Below are positions 16,156 to 56,600 of a DNA stretch of 64,000 nt, one piece after another. Source of the stretch: Halovivax ruber XH-70 (GTDB taxonomy: Archaea; Halobacteriota; Halobacteria; Halobacteriales; Natrialbaceae); the NCBI RefSeq assembly GCF_000328525.1, contig NC_019964.1, positions 744,001 to 808,000 on the forward strand, given 5' to 3'. Position 1 is the stretch's first letter. The number at the start of each line of letters is the position of its first letter. A program made the translations under genes and the position numbers. The notes under the pieces are model-generated. The model made no database searches. It had not been told where the DNA came from and worked only from the letters and a program-made list of their open reading frames with translations.

Positions 16156-16434
16156 ATGGAGTGGAAGCTGTTCGCCGACCTGGCCGAACGCGCCGGCGAC
16201 AGACACGTGGCCGTCGATGTCGAACCCGGGGCAACCGTCGATGACGCCCTGCACGCCCTCCTCGACGGCCGGGGCGACCTTCGCGATCGCGTCCTCGACG
16301 AGGATGGTACCCTCAGCGATGGGATCAACGTCCTCCGCAACGGCAGCGAGATCCATACCCAGCAGGAGGGATTGGAGACGACGCTCGAAGCCGGCGACGA
16401 GCTCGCGATGTTTCCGCCGGTCAGCGGCGGGTAG
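16156..16434 (+). CDS. samp1: ubiquitin-like small archaeal modifier protein (SAMP1/MoaD type)
   Basis: A 92-residue beta-grasp protein opening MEWKLFADLAERAGDR and ending FPPVSGG. The terminal diglycine is the feature that an E1-like UbaA enzyme adenylates, so the protein can act as a protein modifier (sampylation) and as a sulfur carrier for molybdopterin. Hydrophobic spacing matches MoaD. Length is normal for haloarchaeal SAMP1. It is a single gene, divergent from uridine phosphorylase, and is followed by a structured element. Confidence 0.85.
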   Translation: MEWKLFADLAERAGDRHVAVDVEPGATVDDALHALLDGRGDLRDRVLDEDGTLSDGINVLRNGSEIHTQQEGLETTLEAGDELAMFPPVSGG

Positions 16435-16574
16435 TTCGTTCGGCGGACGGGTTCTGAATCGGTTGAGCCGTGATCCGCTGGATGCTGAGTCTCGAATGGC
16501 TGCGAATTCGCGATGCGCCTAGTTTCTGTGTGCGGTATTGTCACCCGTTCCGCGAGCGAACGCAGTGAGCGAGC

Positions 16575-16727
16575 GGGCCGACGACCCCACCGTAGGTGGG
16601 GGAGGAGTGCTTTTCATCAAAGCTAAGCGGAAGCTTCGCTTCCGCGAGGTCCAAAAGAGCCTCCGGCTCTTTTGAAGATTTTGCCGAGGGCCGGCTCCGC
16701 CGGCCCGCAGCGCAAAAGTTTGTAGTG
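16575..16727 (+). ncRNA. structured repeat element, copy 1 (hairpin-rich, unannotated)
   Basis: This gene-free stretch holds four near-perfect hairpins: CCCCACC/GGTGGGG (16585-16601, GTA loop), GCGGAAGC/GCTTCCGC (16627-16645, TTC loop), a 10-bp stem (16652-16674, TCC loop) and GGGCCGGC/GCCGGCCC (16688-16706, TCC loop). Conserved blocks shared with copy 2 (56181-56321, minus strand) are GGGCCGACGAC, GGAGGAGTGCTTTT, ATTTTGCCGAG and GCAGCGCAAAAG. TTTTGC can pair with GCAAAA, enclosed by CAAA/TTTG. Whether it acts as RNA or is a mobile DNA repeat is not known. Confidence 0.5.
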
Positions 16728-16738
16728 GGAAAAGTTCG

Positions 16739-17659
16739 TTAGTAGTTCGTCAGGTCGATCCCGAGGACGAAGTCTGGTTCGTCGGAGAGGTCGGCGCCGG
16801 CGTAGGAGGCGTCGCTGACGGCGGTGACGGTTTCGGGGATCAGCACGCGCGTCTCGTCGGCGCCGAGTTCGGCGGCGTCGCGGGCGATGGCGGCGAAGAG
16901 GGATTTCGCGGCGGGCACGTCGGCCCAGGCGCCGACGCCGTATTCGGCCCAGTGGACCGTCTCGCCGTCGTCGTTTTCACGTTCGTAGTCGCGGCATCGG
17001 TAGGCCATTCCCGAGACGCCGGTGTCGCCGTCGACGGCGAAGACGGCGGTGTCGTCGGCGAGGGTGGCGAGGTCGTCGCGGGTGAGGTCGCGCATGGCCC
17101 AGGACTCGTCGGCGTCGAGTGTGAGTCCACGGAGGTGAGTACGGGCGTCGCTCGTCGTCCAGAAGCGCCAGGCTGCGTCCGGGTCGGCCGAGACGGTGTG
17201 GGGGCCGTCGGCGTCGGGATCCGGGTCGGGCTGGGCGAAGCGGAACTCGGTTTCGGGGGCGAAGCCACCGGCGCGGGCGGCACCGAGGGCGGCGACGTTC
17301 CAGGAGAACGTCATCAAGCGCCCGACGGTCGCGCCCTGTTCGATCGCCCAGTCGAAGCCGGCTTCGTTGAGCCGGCGACTGACACCCTGTCGGCGGTACT
17401 CGGGGTTGACCCGCATGCCCTGGAACCAGGCTTCGTCGGACGAGAGCATGACCGCCTGGACGATTCCCGCCACGTCGTCGCCGACGGTCGCGAGGAACGT
17501 TCGTTTGTGGTCGTCGGTCTCGTCTTCCAGCCAGTCGTGGTAGACGTGGTGGAGGTAGTCGCCGCCGCGGTCGTCCCAGAGATCGCGGGTGAAGGCGGCG
17601 ACACCCTCGTAGTCGTCGTGCGTTGCGCGTCGGATCTCGATGTCGGTCGCGTGTGTCAT
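16739..17659 (-). CDS. GNAT-family N-acetyltransferase
   Basis: A 306-residue acetyltransferase starting at the ATG at 17659; the upstream in-frame residues lack family features. The acetyl-CoA-binding motif is GMRVNPEYRRQGVSRRLNEA (the RRQGVG type, about residues 87-106), preceded by IVQAVMLSSDEAWF. The C-terminal half may be a second, degenerate GNAT repeat. The substrate is unknown. Its stop codon is only about 12 bp from the structured repeat element, so the element lies at the 3' end of this gene in opposite orientation. Confidence 0.8.
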   Translation of the reverse strand: MTHATDIEIRRATHDDYEGVAAFTRDLWDDRGGDYLHHVYHDWLEDETDDHKRTFLATVGDDVAGIVQAVMLSSDEAWFQGMRVNPEYRRQGVSRRLNEAGFDWAIEQGATVGRLMTFSWNVAALGAARAGGFAPETEFRFAQPDPDPDADGPHTVSADPDAAWRFWTTSDARTHLRGLTLDADESWAMRDLTRDDLATLADDTAVFAVDGDTGVSGMAYRCRDYERENDDGETVHWAEYGVGAWADVPAAKSLFAAIARDAAELGADETRVLIPETVTAVSDASYAGADLSDEPDFVLGIDLTNY

Positions 17660-17750
17660 TGGGTCAGTTGTAATCGGGTGTGGGTGGGCTCGCGTGTCCC
17701 CGCTGGTGACTAGTCCGTTCGGCACCCGTAGTGCGCGGATTGTCGACGGG

Positions 17751-55986: not shown

Positions 55987-56057
55987 GCGCGGATGGTCTA
56001 GTGGTAGGACCTGAGCCTTCCAAGCTCATGGCGGGGGTTCAAATCCCCCTCCGCGCA
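55987..56057 (+). tRNA. tRNA-Gly(TCC)
   Basis: The acceptor stem is GCGCGGA (55987-55993) with TCCGCGC (56050-56056), discriminator A at 56057, and no encoded CCA. The anticodon arm is TGAGC-CTTCCAA-GCTCA, giving anticodon TCC, which reads GGA/GGG. The T arm is GGGGG-TTCAAAT-CCCCC. The D loop is short (AGTGGT type). All helices pair well. It is 71 nt with no intron. Confidence 0.95.
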
Positions 56058-56182
56058 TTGCTGCTGCGAGCAAATCCGCGAGCAGCAGCAATCGTCCGAG
56101 GGATTTGAATGAGAGAAGTCGCAGCCCGCGCAACGAAGTGAGCAGGACCGTCTTCGCGTGGTTCAAATCCCCCTCCGCGCAT
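56036..56182. repeat. duplicated 3' end of tRNA-Gly (att-like direct repeat)
   Basis: The 23 bp from the T loop to just beyond the tRNA end (56036-56058) occur again, identical, at 56160-56182. The 101 bp between contain a 10-bp hairpin stem (56058-56067 with 56082-56091) and an inverted copy of part of the T arm (GGATTTGAA, 56101-56109). This is the pattern left by tRNA-targeting integration, but no integrase is present. Confidence 0.7.
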
Positions 56183-56321
56183 CAACCTTTTGCGCTGCGC
56201 TATTTCCGCGCCGGGAGCGCTATCGCGCTCCACGGCGCGTAGACGCTCGGCAAAATGTTGATCAAAAGCACTCCTCCTTCCTCGCCGCTCGCTTCGCTCG
56301 CTTTGAGTCAGTCGTCGGCCC
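56181..56321 (-). ncRNA. structured repeat element, copy 2
   Basis: Read on the minus strand, it contains the same blocks as copy 1: GGGCCGACGAC (56311-56321), GGAGGAGTGCTTTT (56264-56277), ATTTTGCCGAG (56246-56256) and GCAGCGCAAAAG (near 56187-56198). ATCAAC-A-TTTTGC pairs with GCAAAA-G-GTTGAT as a 6+6-bp stem with one mismatch, enclosing a long GC hairpin (56207-56239). Its 3' end abuts the duplicated tRNA-Gly end. Expression is unknown. Confidence 0.5.
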
Positions 56322-56600
56322 ACTCACTCGGCCTTCGGCCTCGCTCGTGGTAGAGTACAGTACAGGGTCAGCCACCGGAATTCAGGTCCGTAATTCCGTA
56401 GCGGCGCAATCGCTTGGGTTCACTCCCTCCTTCATACTAACCGTTGTGTGGGTAGTCGTATCAGCGAAATCCTTTTCCGAATTGTAGCCGCTTGCACTGT
56501 GGATCTTGTTCGCTGGATGTCCATCATGTTCTGTACTTTGTGTTCAACCAACGAACGCTCACCTCGCTTCATTCTACTTATTCCGGACAAAACTAGTTAG
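56322..56600. other. gene-free, AT-richer spacer
   Basis: No reading frame here looks coding. Composition becomes more AT-rich after about 56380, as expected for a recombined or acquired segment near a tRNA gene. I see no complete tRNA, transposase or clear terminal inverted repeat. Confidence 0.45.

Follow-up and report, generated by a model that had tools for sequence, protein, structure and literature searches.

Two distant spacers in one stretch of the Halovivax ruber genome carry related sequences that appear to fold alike, which raises the question of whether their pairing is selected, on which strand, and with what consequence for the genes beside them. The stretch analysed, here called the window, comprises 64,000 nucleotides (positions 744001–808000 of a single contig of 3,223,876 bp).

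Two copies of a folded element in the window

The initial annotation described four blocks of 11–14 nt that copies 1 and 2 share in the same order, and re-reading the sequence bore this out. It also held that helix pairing was preserved despite sequence change. In copy 2, on the minus strand, ATCAAC (56262–56257) indeed pairs with GTTGAT (56186–56181) around TTTTGC (56255–56250) and GCAAAA (56193–56188); in copy 1, CAAA (16618–16621) pairs with TTTG (16719–16722) around TTTTGC (16679–16684) and GCAAAA (16712–16717), and the exchange of a C-G for an A-T pair between the copies is matched on both sides. The reported junction insertion in copy 1 consists of two hairpins (16622–16678), as described. 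The element reaches beyond the limits first noted, back to about 16550 in copy 1 and to about 56350 in copy 2.

Homology to some 20 copies in the genome delimits copy 1, of the type we call class 1, at 16550–16738, with the plus strand as the structured strand. Read 5' to 3' on that strand, a class 1 element comprises an optional GGCC..GGGGAAAGGCTGG domain, a hairpin whose GC pairs alternate with tandem G.A steps, the block GGGCCGACGAC, helix 1 with its hairpin, the block GGAGGAGTGCTTTT and helix 3. In copy 1 the 5' hairpin (16550–16577) reads CCGC-GA-GC-GA-AC / GT-GA-GC-GA-GCGG, a design repeated in other copies and in the copy 2 fold. It runs into GGGCCGACGAC (16575–16585), near-invariant in the alignment, and then into the helix 1/2 hairpin CCCCACC-GTA-GGTGGGG (16585–16601), which is evident in the sequence and the alignment and covaries. 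GGAGGAGTGCTTTT (16601–16614), exact at 13 genome sites, holds the first T-run of the plus strand. Helix 3 has the general form CGAA-g-TTTTNC ... GNAAAA-g-TTCG and encloses CCGAG-hairpin-CGCAGCG; in copy 1 its covarying arms are the CAAA and TTTTGC given above, the latter forming the second plus-strand T-run, and GCAAAA-g-TTTG (16712–16722). A second, duplicated tail, GGAAAAGTTCG (16728–16738), adjoins a stop codon and places a T4 on the strand of the gene concerned; similar tails occur at five other loci (L026, L320, L335, L337 and L350). Unpaired blocks are near-invariant across genera in the alignment, and hairpins and whole two-hairpin modules are swapped at variable positions. The junction insertion of copy 1 is one such module, recurring in loci L002, L003, L005 and others.

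The gene abutted by copy 1 encodes a GNAT acetyltransferase (16739–17725, minus strand; PF00583, 2.9e-12), with its stop codon at 16739–16741. Convergent to it lies a gene for a SAMP1 ubiquitin-like modifier (16156–16434, plus strand), and copy 1 occupies most of the spacer between the two. Copy 2 (56181–56350), also of class 1 and with the minus strand structured, is defined by its sequence, by genome matches to the model described below and by its fold, and its helix 3 domain, ATCAAC-a-TTTTGC ... GCAAAA-g-GTTGAT, lies at 56181–56262. It abuts a 22-nt fragment (56160–56181, plus strand) identical to the 3' end of an intact tRNA-Gly(TCC) at 55987–56057 (plus strand; Rfam tRNA match), and the last base of the fragment is common to helix 3. 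The interval from the intact tRNA gene to copy 2 (56058–56181) contains a hairpin together with an inverted pair, GGGATTTGAA...GGTTCAAATCCC, followed by the tRNA-end copy. The same layout is found at a second tRNA and in the Halovivax sister genome, which matches contigs of Halovivax asiaticus and where the arrangement beside copy 2 is repeated (L358, L359, L363); judged from the sequence, it looks like the remnant of an integration at a tRNA.

A haloarchaeal family with selected pairing

A covariance model, R1, was built from 14 of the genome copies. The search of haloarchaeal genomes with such a model, proposed by the initial annotation, found the family in 26 of 41 genomes (that of H. ruber included), with 1 to 29 copies in each and with E-values that are to be taken as rough. 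R1 matches spread over several haloarchaeal families; among the 157 genomes sampled from the phylum, none fell in those listed outside the order. The named matches listed for an exact pattern are nearly all from Natrialbaceae, plus one Halobacterium, and the carriers among them include Natrinema, Haloterrigena, Natronorubrum, Natronococcus, Halostagnicola and others. Viral contigs and phages held no match to the family, and the plasmid matches are confined to five haloarchaeal replicons. This is a large family of folded haloarchaeal elements, and, given its size, its conservation and its ties to the ends of core genes, it is notable that no family of Rfam 15 matched it (the window and class 2 loci at the gathering cut-off, class 1 loci at a permissive E-value) and that no description was found in open-licence papers. 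The sole Rfam matches in those loci were tRNA and a weak part of a neighbouring SRP RNA.

Two copies alone are insufficient to show selection on structure; the family shows it. In a MAFFT alignment of 14 copies with the structure drawn by hand, 37 cells carried changes on both sides of a pair compared with 12.4 in shuffles, and controls in which the partners were slid collapsed. Among 107 distinct sequences, we counted 317 paired double changes against 78 ± 6.5 in shuffles, with a covariation score of 0.365 against 0.116 and double changes at 20 of 21 pairs; here too, sliding the partners abolished the signal. The 14-copy test is the cleaner of the two because the 107-sequence alignment was fitted to the model, and neither the shuffled nor the slid control fully removes relatedness. 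At the variable position N of TTTTNC/GNAAAA in helix 3, all four Watson-Crick pairs occur.

The pairing is also asymmetric between strands. On the structured strand, G.U outnumbers A.C by 83:3 in helix 1 and by 28:7 in helix 3, and stands at 12:11 in the local hairpin, these figures being cells and not independent events. In 125 of 128 copies the structured strand has the lower predicted RNA fold energy, a difference owed mainly to the 5' domain. Together, the G.U/A.C counts and the folding energies point to selection on one strand, opposite to the abutting gene; because both favour that strand, selection on a fold within the 3' UTR of the gene itself was rejected as the main form. The short hairpins taken alone have little strand bias (74 G.U, 54 A.C), and part of their pairing may stem from template-switch mutation. 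The initial suggestion of selection on RNA or single-stranded DNA structure thus finds support, as regards selection, in the family's covariation and consistent strand bias.

Position at gene 3' ends and turnover

Copies of the family mark the 3' ends of genes. A gene-like ORF on the opposite strand stops 0–6 nt past the 3' end of the element in 76 of 114 testable copies, compared with 18 of 2,280 random positions (0.8%), in a test based on third-position GC and not on annotation. All copies share one orientation relative to the gene they abut, and the position holds for examples in distant haloarchaeal families. RNA genes are marked as well: one copy ends 1–2 nt from the predicted 3' end of an SRP RNA, and two loci, copy 2 of the window included, lie flush with a tRNA gene 3' fragment in both Halovivax genomes. 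The abutted genes recur across genera and include those for thermosome subunits (element at +2 nt in 11 of 11), L10e, eIF1A, IF2, gyrB, PolD subunits, PAN, TFS, ilvE, PstB, PurF and mvaD. Profiles identified PolD, PAN (residues 24–190), EF-2, GDH, ilvE and TFS (residues 1–31), and the other genes were named by eye. TAA serves as the stop codon of the abutted gene in 53 of 76 cases; among the window's gene-like ORFs it does so in 12 of 54. The spacer between ilvE and DUF502 holds a pair of elements, one in contact with each gene, an arrangement common to relatives.

Weak R1 matches led to a shorter relative, class 2, with the layout GC hairpin-GGCC-TTTTT-CATCGAAG-TTTTT...AAAAA-g-TTCG-stop, in which the GC hairpin sits directly before TTTTTC. 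It adjoins TFS, EF-2, GDH, RadA, IscU and other genes (L070, L072–L076 and L078 among the loci). The L10e gene is marked by class 1 in Halovivax and, in a genome of another family (G030), by class 2 at gap 0; TFS has a class 2 element in Halovivax and a class 1 element in Natrinema. It follows that what is conserved is the gene end that is marked, and that the class of element can change. The class 2 model, R2, whose E-values are likewise rough, has matches in 28 of 37 genomes, some of which are class 1 copies. Many R2 matches outside Halovivax have no adjacent stop by the third-position-GC ORF test, so class 2 is less uniform. Class-2-like elements in other genera (L404, L406, L408, L409 and L414) that lack an adjacent stop continue as AAAAAGTTCG-GAGTGATTCG or similar, and on their sequences are possibly a third class.

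Elements also appear to turn over at a given site. At eIF1A, five genomes have the element, two retain a decayed form and close relatives lack it, and other genes likewise show presence, absence and remnants among relatives, the 5' boundary of the element being known approximately. Several copies, copy 1 of the window among them, have the duplicated tail adjoining the stop codon. Similarity between elements at the same site in different genera barely exceeds that between other elements (0.488 vs 0.454). Recent intragenomic transposition was rejected as the main history, since the nearest neighbour of a copy is usually found in a different genome and at a different site. An autonomous version was looked for, and in the loci examined the stretch from the 5' core to the 3' core held no ORF.

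Proposed termination and alternative readings

We tentatively read the element, with a probability of roughly 0.45, as a structured bidirectional transcription terminator or insulator that is fixed to gene 3' ends and has a mobile-like turnover. From the family, its covariation, strand bias, position and T-runs we infer termination itself, with protection of the gene end as its probable benefit. On the gene strand, a T4–T5 run about 5–11 nt past the stop codon, or right after the end of the mature SRP RNA, would end transcription of the gene. The opposite strand would yield a folded RNA, 100–200 nt long, that leads into two T-runs (GCTTTT and TTTTNC), and these would stop oncoming polymerases before they enter the gene. 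Only polymerases coming from the opposite side would transcribe the fold before any T-run, which would account for selection on pairing in that strand. T-stretches are known to terminate transcription in Haloferax volcanii, where a reporter gave 95% efficiency for T5C (PMC7237163). In the family, T-runs are conserved on both strands of helix 3 in both classes; the A4/T4 arms are kept 0–6 nt from the stop and supply T4–T5 on the gene strand, and in the window only 1 of 54 gene-like ORFs has a T4 within 12 nt of its stop. Termination or insulation is the simplest reading that accounts for position, generality over protein and RNA genes, fixed T-runs and strand bias. The marking of the same genes across genera, the interchange of classes at L10e and TFS, the GC hairpin set just ahead of TTTTTC in class 2, and the ilvE/DUF502 spacer with one element per gene also speak for it. 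Against it, the fold is bigger than a terminator requires; upstream neighbours are not convergent in every case, so that opposite-strand traffic is not obvious; and in close relatives the same gene can be without both the element and any obvious substitute T-run. Moreover, helix 3 covaries outside the T-runs, and termination leaves this unexplained because on that strand helix 3 forms only after read-through of both.

The covariation of helix 3 beyond the T-runs is the reason for keeping in view a mobile or RNA-guided origin. A non-autonomous mobile or homing element could target conserved gene 3' ends, perhaps with the flanking antisense gene sequence as its guide; insertion just past a gene would be harmless, by a logic like that of Tn7 at glmS or of omega-RNA homing. 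We consider this unlikely as the main account, even if such a past would make sense of the turnover, the orientation and the preference for conserved targets. Fixed orientation, 0–6 nt precision at conserved genes, SRP RNA and tRNA ends, presence/absence and remnants among relatives, tail duplications by the stop codon and modules shared between loci all fit it. They are countered by the lack of an ORF-bearing version in the loci examined and of matches in phages or viral contigs, by the scarcely greater likeness of same-site copies across genera, by long retention at the same genes and by sites without the element, which show no common motif; R1 also has no match at the genome's six TnpB-domain loci. 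A bolder form, in which a protein-free folded RNA takes the antisense of a conserved gene end as guide, relies on a trans-acting nuclease or reverse transcriptase, inserts precisely after the gene and spreads through haloarchaea while capping host gene ends, strikes us as quite improbable.

Alternatively, the structured strand could give rise to independent small or antisense RNAs that work via a bound protein or target the abutted gene. Such RNAs would account for the strong RNA-like conservation and strand bias, and the structured strand does run antisense toward the gene. This is doubtful given that no conserved promoter-like sequence was seen upstream by eye, that in places the gene upstream stops about 10 nt short of the element, and that little beyond a hairpin and its T-runs is left in class 2. 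A recombination or replication site recognized as a folded DNA strand, by a logic like that of attC, would share the strand-specific folding and the position by the stop codon, and DNA also forms G.T wobble and sheared G.A pairs. We regard it as very unlikely: the conserved T4/A4 tracts and two T-runs suit transcription better, the marked genes remain at their loci, and no recombinase has been linked to the element. Least credible is a set of decaying repeats whose arms are complementary only through template-switch (quasi-palindrome) mutation. Such mutation would give the weak strand bias of the short hairpins, but not the near-invariant unpaired blocks across genera, the strong bias in helices 1 and 3 or the position fixed to gene ends; together with the covariation, these findings already disfavour the reading.

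Several known systems share some of these properties. Pairs of DNA uptake sequences in Neisseria and Haemophilus serve as terminators, and are repeats placed after genes with a mobile-like spread; our element resembles them in its repetition after genes, its mobile-like spread and its proposed terminator role, yet such a pair is a short inverted repeat without a complex fold or gene-fixed orientation. Integron attC sites are strand-specific folded sites directly past a stop codon, with structure kept over sequence, as in the element, which by contrast marks scattered, fixed core genes and RNA genes and conserves T-runs. REP/BIME and MITE repeats are likewise multi-copy intergenic palindromic DNA; the element differs in covarying over a long range, in the conservation of long unpaired blocks and in its strict orientation and 0–6 nt position. 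The T-stretch terminators of haloarchaea (PMC7237163) also put a T4–T5 run, in many cases with a C after it, shortly past the gene, but are short motifs with little structure, unlike a covarying fold of 100–200 nt that has T-runs on both strands at a fixed distance from the gene end. The omega-RNAs of TnpB in IS200/IS605 elements, described in haloarchaea (PMC12558985), are structured non-coding RNAs followed by flanking sequence as a possible guide; the element has no linked TnpB and occurs as about 20 solo copies at core genes. An origin as a TnpB omega-RNA was rejected, as the model's genome matches fall outside all six TnpB-domain loci.

If the element terminates transcription, archaea would fence key genes from opposing transcription with large folded modules and not with bare T-runs alone; if guide-driven movement is true, it would be a new kind of mobile RNA. 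Either reading lends itself to clean tests in haloarchaea that grow in culture, and the covariance models are ready for direct use in annotation.

The two-hairpin module, GTGGTTCGA-hairpin-TCGTCATCAC-hairpin-CGAACGAC, also recurs in either orientation in the interiors of unrelated elements (L003, L041, L100 and L143). In the module of copy 1 and its relatives, GCTAAGCGG...CCGCGAGGTC has what we take to be a resemblance to the UAA/GAN RNA loop motif.
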